A DNA stretch of 64,000 bases. Origin: Streptacidiphilus albus JL83 (lineage in GTDB: Bacteria; Actinomycetota; Actinomycetes; Streptomycetales; Streptomycetaceae). The stretch covers positions 1,922,001-1,986,000 of the forward strand of contig NZ_JQML01000001.1 in the NCBI RefSeq assembly GCF_000744705.1. The letters are read 5' to 3'. Of this stretch, positions 6,424-18,921 are shown piece after piece (position 1 is the first letter of the stretch; every line of letters starts with the position of its first letter). The position numbers and the translations under genes are program-made. Under the pieces are notes generated by a model, which worked only from the letters and a program-made list of their open reading frames with translations, was not told where the DNA came from and searched no databases.

Positions 6424-7185
6424 ATGAACACCACGTACAGGGCGCTGAGTGCGGTTGCACTGCTCAGCGCCGTGACATTGGGAACGGGCGCCTGCAGCGG
6501 CGGTGCCGCCAAGCCGACCGCCGTGGCACCCGCAGCCACCGCCACTGCGAGCACCACCCCGACCGCACCCCCCGTCCCCTCGGGTCCGCTGGGCCCACTC
6601 AGCGGCAGCCAGATAGCCGGCAAGGCCACGGCGGGCCTCCTCGCCGCCTCCTCGGTTCACGTCACCGGCCTCGCCGCGGACGCCGCCGAGGACAACATGC
6701 AGATGTCGATCGATCTGCGGGTACTCCCCGGCAAGGGCTGCACAGGGACGTTCTCCACCCTCGGCAGCAACGTCCCTGAACGGCTCCTGGTCATCGGCAG
6801 CACGGTGTGGGTACTCCCGAGCACCGCCTTCTGGCAGTCGACGCCCTCGCTCAGGAGTCTCGAAGGCAAGTACCTCCAGAACCCGAATCCGAGCACAGGT
6901 GAAGCCGCCGTCTCCATCGCGTGCGACCTCCGCGCGGAGCTGAACAACTGGCAGTCCACGGCCGCCATCACCAAGGGCGCCGCCACCACCCTGGACGGCC
7001 AGAAGGTCGTTCCGCTGACCAACACGAACGGCACGGTCGACGTCACGGACACGGCCGCACCCCGAATCGTGCAGATCGCCCTGAGCAACGACAACGGGAG
7101 CACGATGACGTTCAGCGGCTACGACGCGACACCGGCGGTCCTGACCGCACCCCCGGCAAGCGAGACCATGAGCTTCCCCATCTGA
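6424..7185 (+). CDS. Lipoprotein, LppX/LprAFG-like
   Basis: A 253-residue protein with a lipobox ending at Cys24 (LGTGAC) followed by a Ser/Thr/Pro/Ala linker to about residue 60. The folded part begins SGSQIAGKATAGLLAASSVHVTG and alternates strand-like segments (MSIDLRVLPGKGCTGTFS, then LLVIGSTVWVLPSTAFW). This is the layout of actinobacterial LppX/LprAFG lipoproteins, which hold lipids or sit in the cell envelope. The ATG at 6424 follows the sequence GGGGACCAGCAAC. It appears to be monocistronic. The family call rests on layout, not on a diagnostic motif. Confidence 0.72.
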   Translation: MNTTYRALSAVALLSAVTLGTGACSGGAAKPTAVAPAATATASTTPTAPPVPSGPLGPLSGSQIAGKATAGLLAASSVHVTGLAADAAEDNMQMSIDLRVLPGKGCTGTFSTLGSNVPERLLVIGSTVWVLPSTAFWQSTPSLRSLEGKYLQNPNPSTGEAAVSIACDLRAELNNWQSTAAITKGAATTLDGQKVVPLTNTNGTVDVTDTAAPRIVQIALSNDNGSTMTFSGYDATPAVLTAPPASETMSFPI

Positions 7186-14409: not shown

Positions 14410-14701
14410 CGCGCCGCTCCCCTCCGAGCCACCTGCCGACGACCCGACGTCCCCGGCCCTGCGCGACCGAGCCTGCCATCGACCACTGACAGTCGGCCGG
14501 CCGGCGGCCTCGACGAACCGGCCCAAACCGCCCTGACGACCCATCAAACCCCGCTTGGTAACGATCGGATGACAATCGGATTATTTGCCTCAGTCTTGAC
14601 CTTCTCGGACCCGTCGATCAATAGGATGCGGCCGAATAGTTGCGTGGTTGGGAATTCAGGCGGGGTGCGGTCCATCGACCCCCCGCACAAAGGGGATCCG
14701 T

Positions 14702-16060
14702 ATGCTTCGGGGTATAACCCGCTTCTCCGCGGTGCTGCTCGCGGCCGGTCTGGCCGCAGCAGGCACCGCCACTATTGCCGCGGCGGCTCCGTCCGGCGGC
14801 ACCGATGTCGCCACGCTGGGCAACTTCATCGACTACGGGCGGGTGGCGATCTCCGGCCCGCAGGGCAACGAGCAGGTCGACGGCGGCACCGTAGCGCTGA
14901 ACTTCGGCGGCAAGTCGCTCTCGGTCTACTGCATCGACCTGTACCACGGGACCCAGAACGGCGTGCAGTACACGGAGACGGACTGGAACAAGTCCACGCT
15001 CTCCGGCAACCCGAACGCGGGCAAGATCCAGTGGATCCTGAACAACTCCTTCCCTGACCTGACGGTCAGCCAGCTGGAGTCCGCCACGGGCATCTCGGGC
15101 CTCAACGCGAACAGCGCCGCAGCCGGCACCCAGGCCGCCATCTGGCACTACTCCGACAATGTCACCGCCACCCCGGCGAACGGCAAGGCGGCGACGCTGA
15201 CCACCTGGCTGGAGACGCACGCGTCCTCCGCCTCCGAGCCGACGCCGTCGCTGCAGCTCTCGCCCGCCAGCGTGGCCGGCAAGAGCGGCGAGAAGATCGG
15301 CCCGGTGACCGTCACCACCAGTGCCAACAACGTTGGCCTGCAGCTCACCGCGCCGTCCGGGGTGACCGTGGTGGACAGCAAGGGCCAGCCGGCCAGCACC
15401 GCGTCCAACGGTGAGCAGCTCTTCTTCGACGTCCCGGCGGGAACTGCCGCCGGCAGTGCCCAGCTGACCGCCTCCACCACCACCACGGTGCCGGTGGGCC
15501 GCGCCTTCGCCGCCGTCGACGGCACCAGCCAGACCATGATCCTGGCCGGCAGCTCCCCGGTCTCGGTCAGCGCGGTGGCCTCCGCCCAGTGGGCGCCGAT
15601 GGGCGTCATCCCGGCGGCCAACGCCACCGCCAGCTGCGGCAAGGGCGGGGTCGAGGTGACCCTGACCAACGCGGGCGACCAGCCGTGGACCACCACGGTC
15701 GGCGGCCAGAGCGTCACCGTCCAGGGCGGTGCCAGCACCACGGTGCTGGTCAAGGTCGCCGAGGGCGCCGCCTACGACATCACCGTGACCGGCCCGAACG
15801 GCTTCAGCAAGGAGTTCAAGGGCGCGCTGGAGTGCAAGCCGACCAAGCCGGGCGGCCCCTCCGCCTCGGCGTCGGCCTCCGCCGCGCCTTCGACCTCCGC
15901 GTCGGCGTCCTCCTCGGCCTCCCCGGCCGCGGGCGGCGGCAACCTCGCCTCGACCGGTAGCAGCTCCGCGACCCCGATCATCGGCGGCGTGGGCGTGGCG
16001 CTGATCCTCATCGGCGGCGGCACGGTGTTCTTCCTCCGCAAGCGCGGCCGGAACGCCTGA
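14702..16060 (+). CDS. Thioester-domain (TQXA) cell-wall protein with sortase signal
   Basis: A 452-residue surface protein. A signal peptide (cleavage near AAAAP) is followed by a thioester domain: Cys77 in VYCIDLYHGT and Gln144 in GTQAAIWHY can form the internal Cys-Gln thioester that binds host or surface nucleophiles in Gram-positive adhesins. Next come Ig-like repeats (about 180-390), a Pro/Ser/Ala wall-spanning stretch and a C-terminal sorting signal LASTG (415-419) with hydrophobic helix and RKRGRNA tail. LAXTG is the class E sortase form common in Streptomyces. The ATG has AAAGGGGA upstream; TTGACC and TAGGAT lie about 100 bp further up but 20 bases apart. Confidence 0.9.
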   Translation: MLRGITRFSAVLLAAGLAAAGTATIAAAAPSGGTDVATLGNFIDYGRVAISGPQGNEQVDGGTVALNFGGKSLSVYCIDLYHGTQNGVQYTETDWNKSTLSGNPNAGKIQWILNNSFPDLTVSQLESATGISGLNANSAAAGTQAAIWHYSDNVTATPANGKAATLTTWLETHASSASEPTPSLQLSPASVAGKSGEKIGPVTVTTSANNVGLQLTAPSGVTVVDSKGQPASTASNGEQLFFDVPAGTAAGSAQLTASTTTTVPVGRAFAAVDGTSQTMILAGSSPVSVSAVASAQWAPMGVIPAANATASCGKGGVEVTLTNAGDQPWTTTVGGQSVTVQGGASTTVLVKVAEGAAYDITVTGPNGFSKEFKGALECKPTKPGGPSASASASAAPSTSASASSSASPAAGGGNLASTGSSSATPIIGGVGVALILIGGGTVFFLRKRGRNA

Positions 16061-17436: not shown

Positions 17437-18168
17437 GTGACCAAGCTCAACCAGATCATCGCGGTGGAGAAGGGTGTCAAGGCGAAGTCCTTCGCCGACC
17501 TCACCCAGGCGCACCACGACGTGCAGAAGACCGCGCTGCTCGCCGGCATCGCGCGGACGTACCAGCCGAAGGACGAGGAGGGCGAGCAGTTCCCGCCCGA
17601 GTCGACCCGGGTGCAGGTCAAGGCCGAGGACGTGCTGCGCTCCACCGGAGCGACGCTGACCCGGCTGTTCGACGTCACCGCGACGAAGGACTGGGCCAAC
17701 TGCACCGCGAAGGCCGATGTCACCATCGACGGCGCGGTCGTCGTCAAGGGCGCCCCGGTCAGCTACCTGCTGTTCCTGGAGAAGCAACTGGTAGACCTGC
17801 ACACCTTCGTGAAGAAGCTGCCGGTGCTGGACGCCTCCGAGGCCTGGTCGCGCGACGAGTCCACCGACTCCTGGCGGACCGAGCCGACCAGGACGATCCG
17901 CACCCGCAAGGTGATGCGGAACCACGTGAAGGCCGAGGCCACCGAGAAGCACCCGGCCCAGGTCGAGGTGTACACCGAGGACATCGCCGTCGGCTACTGG
18001 ACGACGGTCAAGTTCTCCGGAGCGCTTCCCGCCAAGCGCGTCAACGACCTGCTGGAGCGCGTGGAGAAGCTCCAGACGGCCGTCAAGTACGCGCGCGAGG
18101 AGGCCAACGGCGCCGAGGTCGTCGACCAGCGGGTCGGCGACAAGGTGTTCGGCTACCTCTTCGGGTAG
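17437..18168 (+). CDS. DUF7873-like hypothetical protein
   Basis: A 243-residue soluble protein. It begins TKLNQIIAVEKGVKAKSFAD, continues with AHHDVQKTALLAGIARTYQP and ESTRVQVKAEDVLR, and ends ADKVFGYLFG-like (GDKVFGYLFG). I match this to the DUF7873 family from memory; members occur on Streptomyces chromosomes and in phage-like contexts, with no known function. Start GTG 17437 after AGGGGGG. It is followed within 12 bp by a terminator hairpin and then by the permuted tRNA-like locus, so it may be linked to it, which is an inference. Confidence 0.65.
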   Translation: MTKLNQIIAVEKGVKAKSFADLTQAHHDVQKTALLAGIARTYQPKDEEGEQFPPESTRVQVKAEDVLRSTGATLTRLFDVTATKDWANCTAKADVTIDGAVVVKGAPVSYLLFLEKQLVDLHTFVKKLPVLDASEAWSRDESTDSWRTEPTRTIRTRKVMRNHVKAEATEKHPAQVEVYTEDIAVGYWTTVKFSGALPAKRVNDLLERVEKLQTAVKYAREEANGAEVVDQRVGDKVFGYLFG

Positions 18169-18179
18169 CCCCACAGTCC

Positions 18180-18197
18180 CCCCGTCCTCGGGCGGGG
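18180..18197 (+). terminator. Terminator hairpin before the RNA locus
   Basis: CCCCGTC and GGCGGGG form a 7 bp stem (one G-T pair) closed by a CTCG loop, 12 bp after the 17437 stop codon. It separates that gene from the tRNA-like modules. Confidence 0.7.
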
Positions 18198-18241
18198 TGC
18201 GCCAGGAGCGCAAGCTGAAACTGAAGCTTGTCGTGACCGAC

Positions 18242-18316
18242 GCGGTCCAGTGGAGGTTCGAATCCTCCCCCCGGCACCAACAGGCCGGGGTAGCCCAAGC
18301 CGGTAGAGGCAGCCGC
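18242..18316 (+). tRNA. Permuted tRNA-like module 1
   Basis: Parts in order along the DNA: anticodon-stem 3' strand GCGGT (18242-18246), variable loop CCAGT, T-arm GGAGG-TTCGAAT-CCTCC (18252-18268), acceptor 3' strand CCCCGGC (18269-18275), A73 and CCA (18276-18279), spacer ACAG, acceptor 5' strand GCCGGGG (18284-18290), TA, D-arm GCC-loop-GGC with GG in the loop (18293-18310), A26, and anticodon-stem 5' strand GCCGC (18312-18316). All seven acceptor pairs form and all five anticodon-stem pairs form (one G-T), but only in permuted order. The anticodon loop is not contiguous, so identity is unknown. Flanks 18214-18226 and 18336-18348 pair at 11 of 13 positions, extending the anticodon arm. Confidence 0.65.
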
Positions 18317-18390
18317 GATCAATCTCAGACTCTCGCTCCAGATTCAGCATTCGCCGCCGAGCGCCGGATCGCCCGGGTGCGGGCGATGAT

Positions 18391-18461
18391 CGTCGGATGC
18401 CGGTTCAAGTCCGGCCCCGTGCTCCAGTCGTGCGCGGGTCGTCCAAAGGCAGGACACGACG
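18391..18461 (+). tRNA. Permuted tRNA-like module 2
   Basis: Same layout as module 1: anticodon-stem 3' strand CGTCG (18391-18395), short variable GAT, T-arm GCCGG-TTCAAGT-CCGGC (18399-18415), acceptor 3' strand CCCGTGC (18416-18422), U73 and CCA (18423-18426), spacer GTCGT, acceptor 5' strand GCGCGGG (18432-18438), UC, D-arm GTCC-AAAGGCA-GGAC (18441-18455), A26, and anticodon-stem 5' strand CGACG (18457-18461). Acceptor 7/7 (one G-T) and anticodon stem 5/5 pairs form only in this order. GGTGCGGG (18376-18383) pairs perfectly with CCCGCACC (18474-18481), again prolonging the anticodon arm. The T-arm and D-arm sequences differ from module 1, so this is not a recent duplication. Confidence 0.65.
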
Positions 18462-18594
18462 GTATAAGAATGACCCGCACCTTTTAAAAGTGCCGGTGCA
18501 AGCAATTGGGTGGCATCTCAGAGGCCCGGGGGATGGATACAGCCCCCGGGTCTCGTCACGTCCGGGGTCCCGTCACATCCGCAGCGGCGGCGCG
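18462..18594. other. Tail of the RNA locus
   Basis: After module 2 there is an unusually AT-rich palindrome CTTTTAAAAG (18481-18490) within GCAC-CTTTTAAAA-GTGC, which could end the transcript, then the direct stretch to the convergent 18595 gene. No further tRNA part is recognised with confidence; GTGCCGGTGCAAGC (from 18490) only vaguely recalls a T-arm. Confidence 0.35.
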
Positions 18595-18921
18595 TCAGGC
18601 GGCGACGCCGGCCGGACAGGCCGTCGCCCCCTCGCGGGGCGACTCCTCGCGGGCGGCGCGCCACAGCGCCCGCACGGTCACGCTCCAGCGGTGCTCGGCG
18701 ATGGCGGAGGCCATCAGCGGGTGCGTCTCGACCTCGCGCTGAGCCTGCCGCTGGGCGTTGCGCAGCCGCCGGTACTCGGCCTGCCGGGGCAGCGGCCAGT
18801 GGACGACCGGCTGGTCGGGCCCGGCCAGCACGAAAGCGCGTGTCGCCGCCTCGCACGCCCACACCTGACGCTGGGCCTGTACGAGCTCACTAGGAAACCA
18901 GGAAGCTGCCACGGGAAGCAT
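18595..18921 (-). CDS. Hypothetical protein
   Basis: A 108-residue protein with no recognised family. It is helical: WFPSELVQAQRQVWACEAATRAFVL, then QAEYRRLRNAQRQAQREVETHPLM, then a basic-to-acidic tail. The GTG/ATG choice is uncertain. I use the ATG at 18921, where natural-looking sequence begins; the frame stays open to 19044 and an ATG at 19026 is possible. It is divergent from the TetR gene and convergent with the RNA locus. Confidence 0.45.
   Translation of the reverse strand: MLPVAASWFPSELVQAQRQVWACEAATRAFVLAGPDQPVVHWPLPRQAEYRRLRNAQRQAQREVETHPLMASAIAEHRWSVTVRALWRAAREESPREGATACPAGVAA

Follow-up and report, generated by a model that had tools for sequence, protein, structure and literature searches.

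The bacterial Y RNA YrlA is described as a tRNA mimic in the excerpts of PMC11472068 and PMC8394870 on which we draw. According to the excerpt of PMC8394870, YrlA combines a tRNA-like domain with a basal stem, is modified by DusA and TruB, binds Ro60, and tethers PNPase. Of the 99 permuted pairs in a survey of RNA structures, 81 were superpositions of one bacterial Y RNA on tRNAs (excerpt of PMC11472068), and competitive inhibition of an anticodon nuclease has been suggested as a role for YrlA (excerpt of PMC7790460). The open-access literature that we searched contained no paper treating Y RNA, Streptomyces, and Ro60 together. Two further systems bear on the element reported here. tmRNA also carries a tRNA-like part within a larger RNA, and permuted two-piece tmRNA genes exist. 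The circularly permuted tRNA genes of algae and archaea share with our element the order of 3' half, intervening loop, and 5' half; in the algal ones U33 is kept, and a splicing endonuclease acts at a bulge-helix-bulge motif (excerpt of PMC3978253).

The window analyzed here is the whole stretch of 64,000 nucleotides from Streptacidiphilus albus JL83 (NZ_JQML01000001.1, 1,922,001-1,986,000), lying within a 9.9-Mb single-contig genome. An earlier note, drawn up from the letters of the window alone, described two tandem tRNA-like modules in circularly permuted order and knew of no established bacterial case. For tRNA mimics, circular permutation already has a bacterial precedent in Y RNA (excerpts of PMC11472068 and PMC8394870). 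The neighboring gene, the conserved blocks outside the tRNA-like folds, and the related phage loci described below go beyond that note. We consider it about 65% probable that the locus specifies an RNA element of ~380 nt in which two YrlA-like tRNA-mimic domains, each circularly permuted, stand in tandem, and that this RNA and the product of the adjacent DUF7873 gene act together as a ribonucleoprotein. Comparison of sequences establishes that both modules fold and covary in permuted order, that module 2 has outer stems, that a 6-nt tract and a 3' hairpin with a GGNUA loop belong to the element, and that it co-occurs with DUF7873. The element itself would be transcribed as a noncoding RNA.

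Permuted folds of the two modules

Both modules of the window are confirmed: each folds into a permuted tRNA-like domain and forms the stems described in the earlier note, and our finder reproduced their coordinates and pair counts (Table 1). Anticodon stem, T-arm, and acceptor form 5 of 5, 5 of 5, and 7 of 7 pairs in each module, and the D-stem forms 3 of 3 pairs in module 1 and 4 of 4 in module 2; for the acceptor and anticodon stems these are the counts that the earlier note had given. When the acceptor is read in canonical order, GCCGGGG (18284-18290) against CCCGTGC (18416-18422), our hand count of 5 of 7 pairs also agrees with it. The T-loops and the GG of the D-loops are intact, as had been stated, and the two modules do differ in sequence, having diverged from each other. 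RNA folding gave z-scores of -2.92 for 18214-18347 and -3.97 for 18361-18500 but +0.20 for the canonical-order stretch 18284-18426, and thus favors the permuted order over the canonical one. CCA directly follows the acceptor in both modules of the window, as ACCA in module 1 and as TCCA in module 2.

The only call that ARAGORN made here was a tRNA-Phe(gaa) at 18191-18279, over the 3' half of module 1, and it made the same kind of call at two related loci (L036 3754-3842 and L045 3762-3848). These calls are probably spurious, and such a tRNA-Phe may have entered the public annotations of such genomes. We give this probably false tRNA-Phe over module 1 as a practical warning.

Table 1. Features of the element and its neighboring gene, in window positions
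Feature	Position	Strand	Basis
DUF7873 gene (PF25283), 243 aa from a GTG start; its product is the presumed partner of the RNA	17437..18168	+	Pfam E 1.6e-117; tblastn relatives
5' hairpin, between DUF7873 gene and 6-nt tract	18180..18197	+	minimum-energy fold, window sequence alone
6-nt-periodic tract, GAGCGC AAGCTG AAACTG AAGCTT	18206..18229	+	autocorrelation, phased composition
Module 1, permuted tRNA-like domain	18242..18316	+	finder, covariation, YrlA alignment 18228-18335
Module 1, order: anticodon-stem 3' strand, T-arm, acceptor 3' strand (18269-18275), ACCA and loop, acceptor 5' strand (18284-18290), D-arm, anticodon-stem 5' strand		+	
Inter-module block with conserved CTCAGACTCTCGCTCCAGATTCAGCATT	18317..18390	+	alignment
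5' strands of module 2 outer helices, inside inter-module block	18361-18367, 18375-18383	+	covariation, window fold
Module 2, permuted tRNA-like domain; acceptor 3' strand 18416-18422, 5' strand 18432-18438	18391..18461	+	finder, covariation, YrlA alignment 18377-18483
3' strands of module 2 outer helices	18474..18499	+	window fold; double changes in 36 sequences
Outer helix pairing of module 2, with CUUAAACG-type internal loop between the two helices	18474-18482 with 18375-18383; 18493-18499 with 18361-18367	+	window fold
3' hairpin, loop UGGAUAC (GGNUA class); probable 3' end of element	18521..18554	+	folding z -4.96

Conservation and covariation in relatives

Loci for comparison were chosen by DUF7873 alone, and the 900 nt after each gene were scanned for modules. 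The resulting 174 loci comprised the best 80 of 547 genome stretches, the best 80 of 397 viral stretches, and 14 more, including the window, with some duplicates among them (e.g., L131 and L132). The finder required at least 4 of 5 pairs in the T-arm, 6 of 7 in the acceptor, and 4 of 5 in the anticodon stem, and modules scoring at least 24.5 were counted as strong. Two or more permuted modules were found after the gene in 118 of the 174 loci, one in 50, and none in 6; a strong module was present in 161. Dinucleotide shuffles of the same downstream sequences, by comparison, yielded any module in 5 of 522 cases and a strong one in 0 of 522. Of the two other controls, upstream stretches gave any module in 12 of 170 cases and a strong one in 1, and the DUF7873 gene copies gave 7 of 174 and 1, respectively.

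A model of module 2 with its outer stems (model R1) accounts for some of the exceptions. Two of the six loci without a module (L146 and L180) carry the element by this model, and L179, where the finder also saw none, matches it at only 18.4 bits. L131 has DUF7873 but neither a module nor an R1 match, and the printed sequence of L132 is the same as that of L131. At L182, R1 places the element on the strand opposite to DUF7873, so the element is not merely the 3' end of the DUF7873 mRNA.

Across 57 nonredundant two-module loci, the permuted acceptors average 6.95 (module 1) and 6.96 (module 2) of 7 pairs, compared to 4.35 for the canonical reading; since the finder itself demands at least 6 of these 7 pairs, part of the two high averages is built in, and it is the shuffles that offer a fair comparison. 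Module 1 was aligned by sequence alone with MAFFT in 38 of the 57 loci, and the alignment of module 2 covered 36, the rows being picked for similar length and ordinary loops. Because all 57 loci had already passed the pairing finder, the pairing percentages from these alignments are somewhat inflated, yet with modules in just 5 of the 522 shuffles, selection cannot produce the pattern.

In the module 1 alignment, 99.1% of cells pair across the permuted T-arm, acceptor, and D-arm, with double changes at 11 of 15 pairs; 0 of 500 shuffles reached the observed values, and no slide came near them. From the module 2 alignment RNAalifold, unaided, returned the permuted T-arm, acceptor, and D-arm together with two outer helices. 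Here 94.7% of cells pair, double changes occur at 29 of 31 pairs, and the covariation score is 0.741, compared to 0.236 for shuffled and at most 0.172 for slid alignments. The outer helices have double changes at all 15 of their 15 pairs in the 36 sequences, and past the anticodon stem of module 2 the sequence forms a conserved double stem in which an internal loop AUCGACC lies opposite the CUUAAACG type. For module 1, RNAalifold gave no outer helix on its alignment; only a single-sequence fold supports one.

The earlier note had proposed looking for compensatory changes in the acceptor and anticodon stems. In the acceptors they are plentiful, with double changes in relatives at 7 of 7 pairs of each module. 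The anticodon stem is less well kept: it is complete (5 of 5 pairs) in 41 of 57 loci for module 1 and 45 of 57 for module 2, above the 17.3 and 23.2 expected by chance but weaker than the other stems.

Double changes at every acceptor pair within each module contradict an origin in a decayed array of ordinary tRNA genes, where the 3' half of one tRNA would precede the 5' half of the next and look permuted. Tandem tRNAs do give weak matches to YrlA and to R1, as such an origin would lead one to expect, but canonical pairing averages only the 4.35 of 7 given above, and the alignment shows the non-tRNA blocks of the element to be conserved between phages and genomes. We regard a decayed array as extremely improbable.

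The permuted order, with its intact T-loops, D-loops, and acceptor stems, could also belong to true circularly permuted tRNA genes, as the earlier note implied. Their transcripts would be cut and ligated at the anticodon, and RNase P and a 3' processing enzyme would remove the acceptor loop to leave functional tRNAs. Such genes would fit the ACCA after module 1, although it occurs in only 33 of the 115 two-module loci (TCCA follows module 2 in 24), and the position of the element inside a dense tRNA cluster in 4 of 11 phage records (L011, L012, L013, and L032). In the finder's register, however, position 33 is T in just 25 of the 115 loci for module 1 and 32 for module 2, compared to the U33 kept in algal permuted tRNAs, which also have the bulge-helix-bulge motif (excerpt of PMC3978253). 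Here there is no evident anticodon loop; the anticodon side of module 2 runs on into conserved, covarying outer helices, leaving no loop to join, and the acceptor stems vary freely between relatives. Maturation of the algal kind uses a splicing endonuclease, an enzyme that is not known from bacteria. We think permuted tRNA genes very improbable at this locus and prefer the reading of a Y-RNA-type element with two tRNA-mimic domains.

Flanking parts of the element and its distribution

The conserved element, ~380 nt long, takes in both modules, a tract with 6-nt periodicity, and, on its 3' side, a GGNUA-loop hairpin. Over the 40 nt before module 1 in the 57 loci, autocorrelation was 0.443 at 6 nt and 0.392 at 12 nt, compared to 0.257 and 0.252 after shuffling, and phased composition gave ARRYUN as the unit of the tract. 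A GGNUA-loop hairpin of at least 6 pairs lies no more than 200 nt after module 2 in 45 of the 57 loci, against 30 occurrences over 373,408 bases from other parts of these loci. As for the 5' hairpin of the window, 17 of 57 loci have a hairpin whose loop contains GAGC. A candidate helix joins GGAGC before module 1 to GCUCC in the inter-module block, where the motif was located in 49 of 57 loci; the two can pair in 29 of the 49 (21.0 expected) and in 7 of 11 variant cases (3.0 expected), which is suggestive only. A scan for sigma-70 promoters and U-tract terminators found none. Group I intron elements were considered by eye and set aside.

The 6-nt tract and its flanks might instead be coding, with alternating Lys/Arg and Leu codons, in which case the tRNA-like folds would be incidental or part of a tmRNA-like device. 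The tract does read as alternating basic and Leu/Phe codons, and a 96-aa frame (18197-18487) spans both modules in the window. This frame is not conserved among loci, however. After 10 of the 57 loci had been set aside for weak hexads, 19 of the 47 with clear hexads had no in-frame start, and the open lengths ranged from 0 to 224 codons; moreover, no frame is open across the element in 35 of 41 viral two-module loci. Unlike tmRNA, the element has paired D-stems, two modules, and no conserved tag frame, and neither ARAGORN nor Rfam called a tmRNA in the window. The coding reading was therefore dropped, and we hold both it and the tmRNA-like variant to be highly doubtful.

Relatives of DUF7873 were found by tblastn in 73 phage records and in 12 of 14 congeners; among the matches listed, the nearest named relatives of the gene in the window are in Streptacidiphilus carbonis and S. 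jeojiense (93% protein identity). The element is present in Streptomycetaceae, in Nonomuraea, and in phages of Gordonia, Arthrobacter, Rhodococcus, Pseudanabaena, and Klebsiella, and the Nonomuraea copy and some Streptomyces copies come from records that are labeled plasmids. Klebsiella-group jumbo phages (L031, L202, and L203) and Pseudanabaena phages (L029 and L035) carry two modules, and a single module was seen in a Rhizobium (L032) and a Vibrio (L030) phage. The finder's one weak match in a Microcoleus phage (L028) is doubtful. Around 6700-6950 of this record, several T-arms and acceptor strands appear by eye to be nested or interleaved, and R1 scores 33.4 bits at 6792-6942.

Full-length matches to R1 track DUF7873 closely. 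They occur in 12 of 14 congeners, exactly the 12 with DUF7873. Of 296 Actinomycetota genomes, 132 have some R1 match at an E value of 0.001 or below; among the matches listed, those of full length fall in 6 genomes, exactly the 6 with DUF7873, and the rest are partial. Besides the 4 of 11 phage records in which a dense tRNA cluster encloses the element, tRNAs are close to it in 3 (L030, L033, and L034) and ~3 kb off in 1 (L031), and none were seen in the stretch around the element in the other 3 (L028, L029, and L035).

Relation to YrlA and the DUF7873 protein

Rfam at gathering level had no match at the element. With relaxed limits on 17800-18900, YrlA (RF02553) aligned with both modules over model positions 1 to 114, at 26.5 and 24.2 bits (E values of 0.0034 and 0.015), far below its gathering score of 69. 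That cutoff is not decisive here, because the Ro60-linked Y RNAs of the family to which Streptacidiphilus belongs likewise fall short of it (best, 56.2 bits). A YrlA score alone proves little, since ordinary tandem tRNAs also match weakly (13 of 14 control genomes at an E value of 1 or below); in the S. albus genome itself, YrlA matches in L005, L006, L007, and L010 overlap tRNA genes. What the element shares with YrlA is a tRNA-like domain in circularly permuted order, made up of T-arm, closed acceptor hairpin, and D-arm, and, on module 2, a basal stem that extends past the stem on the anticodon side and has internal loops. The element differs from YrlA in its two modules, its extra 6-nt tract, its GGNUA hairpin, and its score, and it is linked to DUF7873 rather than Ro60, with a stem motif unlike that of the family's Ro60-linked Y RNAs. 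Judged by Rfam at gathering level and by the open-access literature searched, this DUF7873-linked dual-module form is undescribed.

The S. albus genome has a TROVE gene near 8.213 Mb, 6.3 Mb from the element, with its own YrlA ~0.9 kb away. The element could be seen as a further Ro60-binding Y RNA, with Ro60 of host or phage binding the outer stem of module 2 and DUF7873 as a mere neighbor or accessory. The overall plan is the same as that of YrlA, and TROVE is also present in 5 of the 6 DUF7873 genomes of the Actinomycetota sample. DUF7873 and TROVE are both present in Deinobacterium chartae and in Rhizobium phage RHph_TM21B (L032; MN988560.1 107514-114106), where DUF7873 with one module and, ~5 kb further on, TROVE lie in a single tRNA cluster. 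Against this, TROVE is absent from 10 of the 11 phage records with DUF7873 and from genome G184. It is also found in 2 of the 3 genomes of the Streptacidiphilus family that lack DUF7873 in the sample, so the overlap of DUF7873 and TROVE may reflect shared ancestry. The TROVE-side Y RNAs of the family have, by eye, another stem motif, near CGGWUACUUC with CCGUCGCCG, and they match R1 only over the tRNA-like core. Taking both sides together, we think it unlikely that the element is such an Ro60-binding Y RNA with DUF7873 in no more than a neighboring or accessory part, though Ro60 may be a partner besides DUF7873.

Further YrlA-like RNAs were noticed in these comparisons. One in the S. albus genome (L237 197-301; G000:C1:1443396-1443500) scores 46.7 bits, lies away from both TROVE and DUF7873, and has by eye a stem motif of the Ro60 type. 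Four TROVE-side loci of the family (L231, L233, L234, and L236) each have two YrlA-like RNAs ~230 to 260 nt apart; tandem pairs may thus be a wider habit of such RNAs.

If the element does act as a ribonucleoprotein with DUF7873, the protein would bind its non-tRNA parts, in the manner of Ro60/Rsr on the YrlA basal stem, and would take or share the role of Ro60. The two tRNA-shaped domains would then offer elbow and acceptor stem to tRNA-recognizing enzymes, as bait or adaptor. By analogy with the tethering of PNPase by YrlA, a tether is close to an even bet under this reading; a decoy for tRNA-directed nucleases or modifiers is possible, though we would wager against it. The position of the element in or near phage tRNA clusters fits tether and decoy alike. 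More speculatively, and at odds somewhat short of even, the element may represent a second, Ro60-independent class of Y-RNA-type ribonucleoprotein, built on an RNA with two tRNA mimics whose 6-nt repeats and stem loops are coated or read by DUF7873. Phages would use it to occupy or redirect host tRNA-acting enzymes (tRNA-directed defense nucleases or RNA decay), and Streptomycetaceae would have domesticated it.

Bacterial Y RNAs are known through Ro60, whereas here a doubled permuted tRNA mimic accompanies an unrelated, uncharacterized protein family, in bacterial genomes and in phages of several host phyla. If our reading is true, tRNA-mimic ribonucleoproteins arose, or changed partner, more than once; DUF7873 would gain a testable function, and there would be a phage-borne tRNA mimic to study against tRNA-directed defense.

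The DUF7873 protein shows no recognized fold or RNA-binding domain by Pfam or PDB comparison. A Pfam search at E values of up to 10 returned only DUF7873 itself and a weak coiled-coil match, with no TROVE domain. The AlphaFold2 model is confident (pLDDT, 91.5; pTM, 0.62), with long helices and long strands, and comparison of it with PDB structures gave no match at an E value of 0.001 or below; the best match on a second look was 3kdq, a protein of unknown function. None of the 11 proteins in set A1 could be placed in a PHROGs family, and we found no mention of DUF7873 in the open-access literature searched. The DUF7873 consensus contains a conserved basic stretch, RTKKVPRNHVKAEATDKHPAQV, which is a candidate RNA contact. 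Two members have weak matches to other families: the Vibrio phage protein to KwaB (E value of 4.5e-4) and the protein of locus L212 to PDC-S02 (E value of 0.0026).

Elsewhere in the window, an open frame at 14648-16060 combines a thioester domain (PF08341) with a phospholipase C C-terminal domain (PF05506) and perhaps encodes a surface protein.
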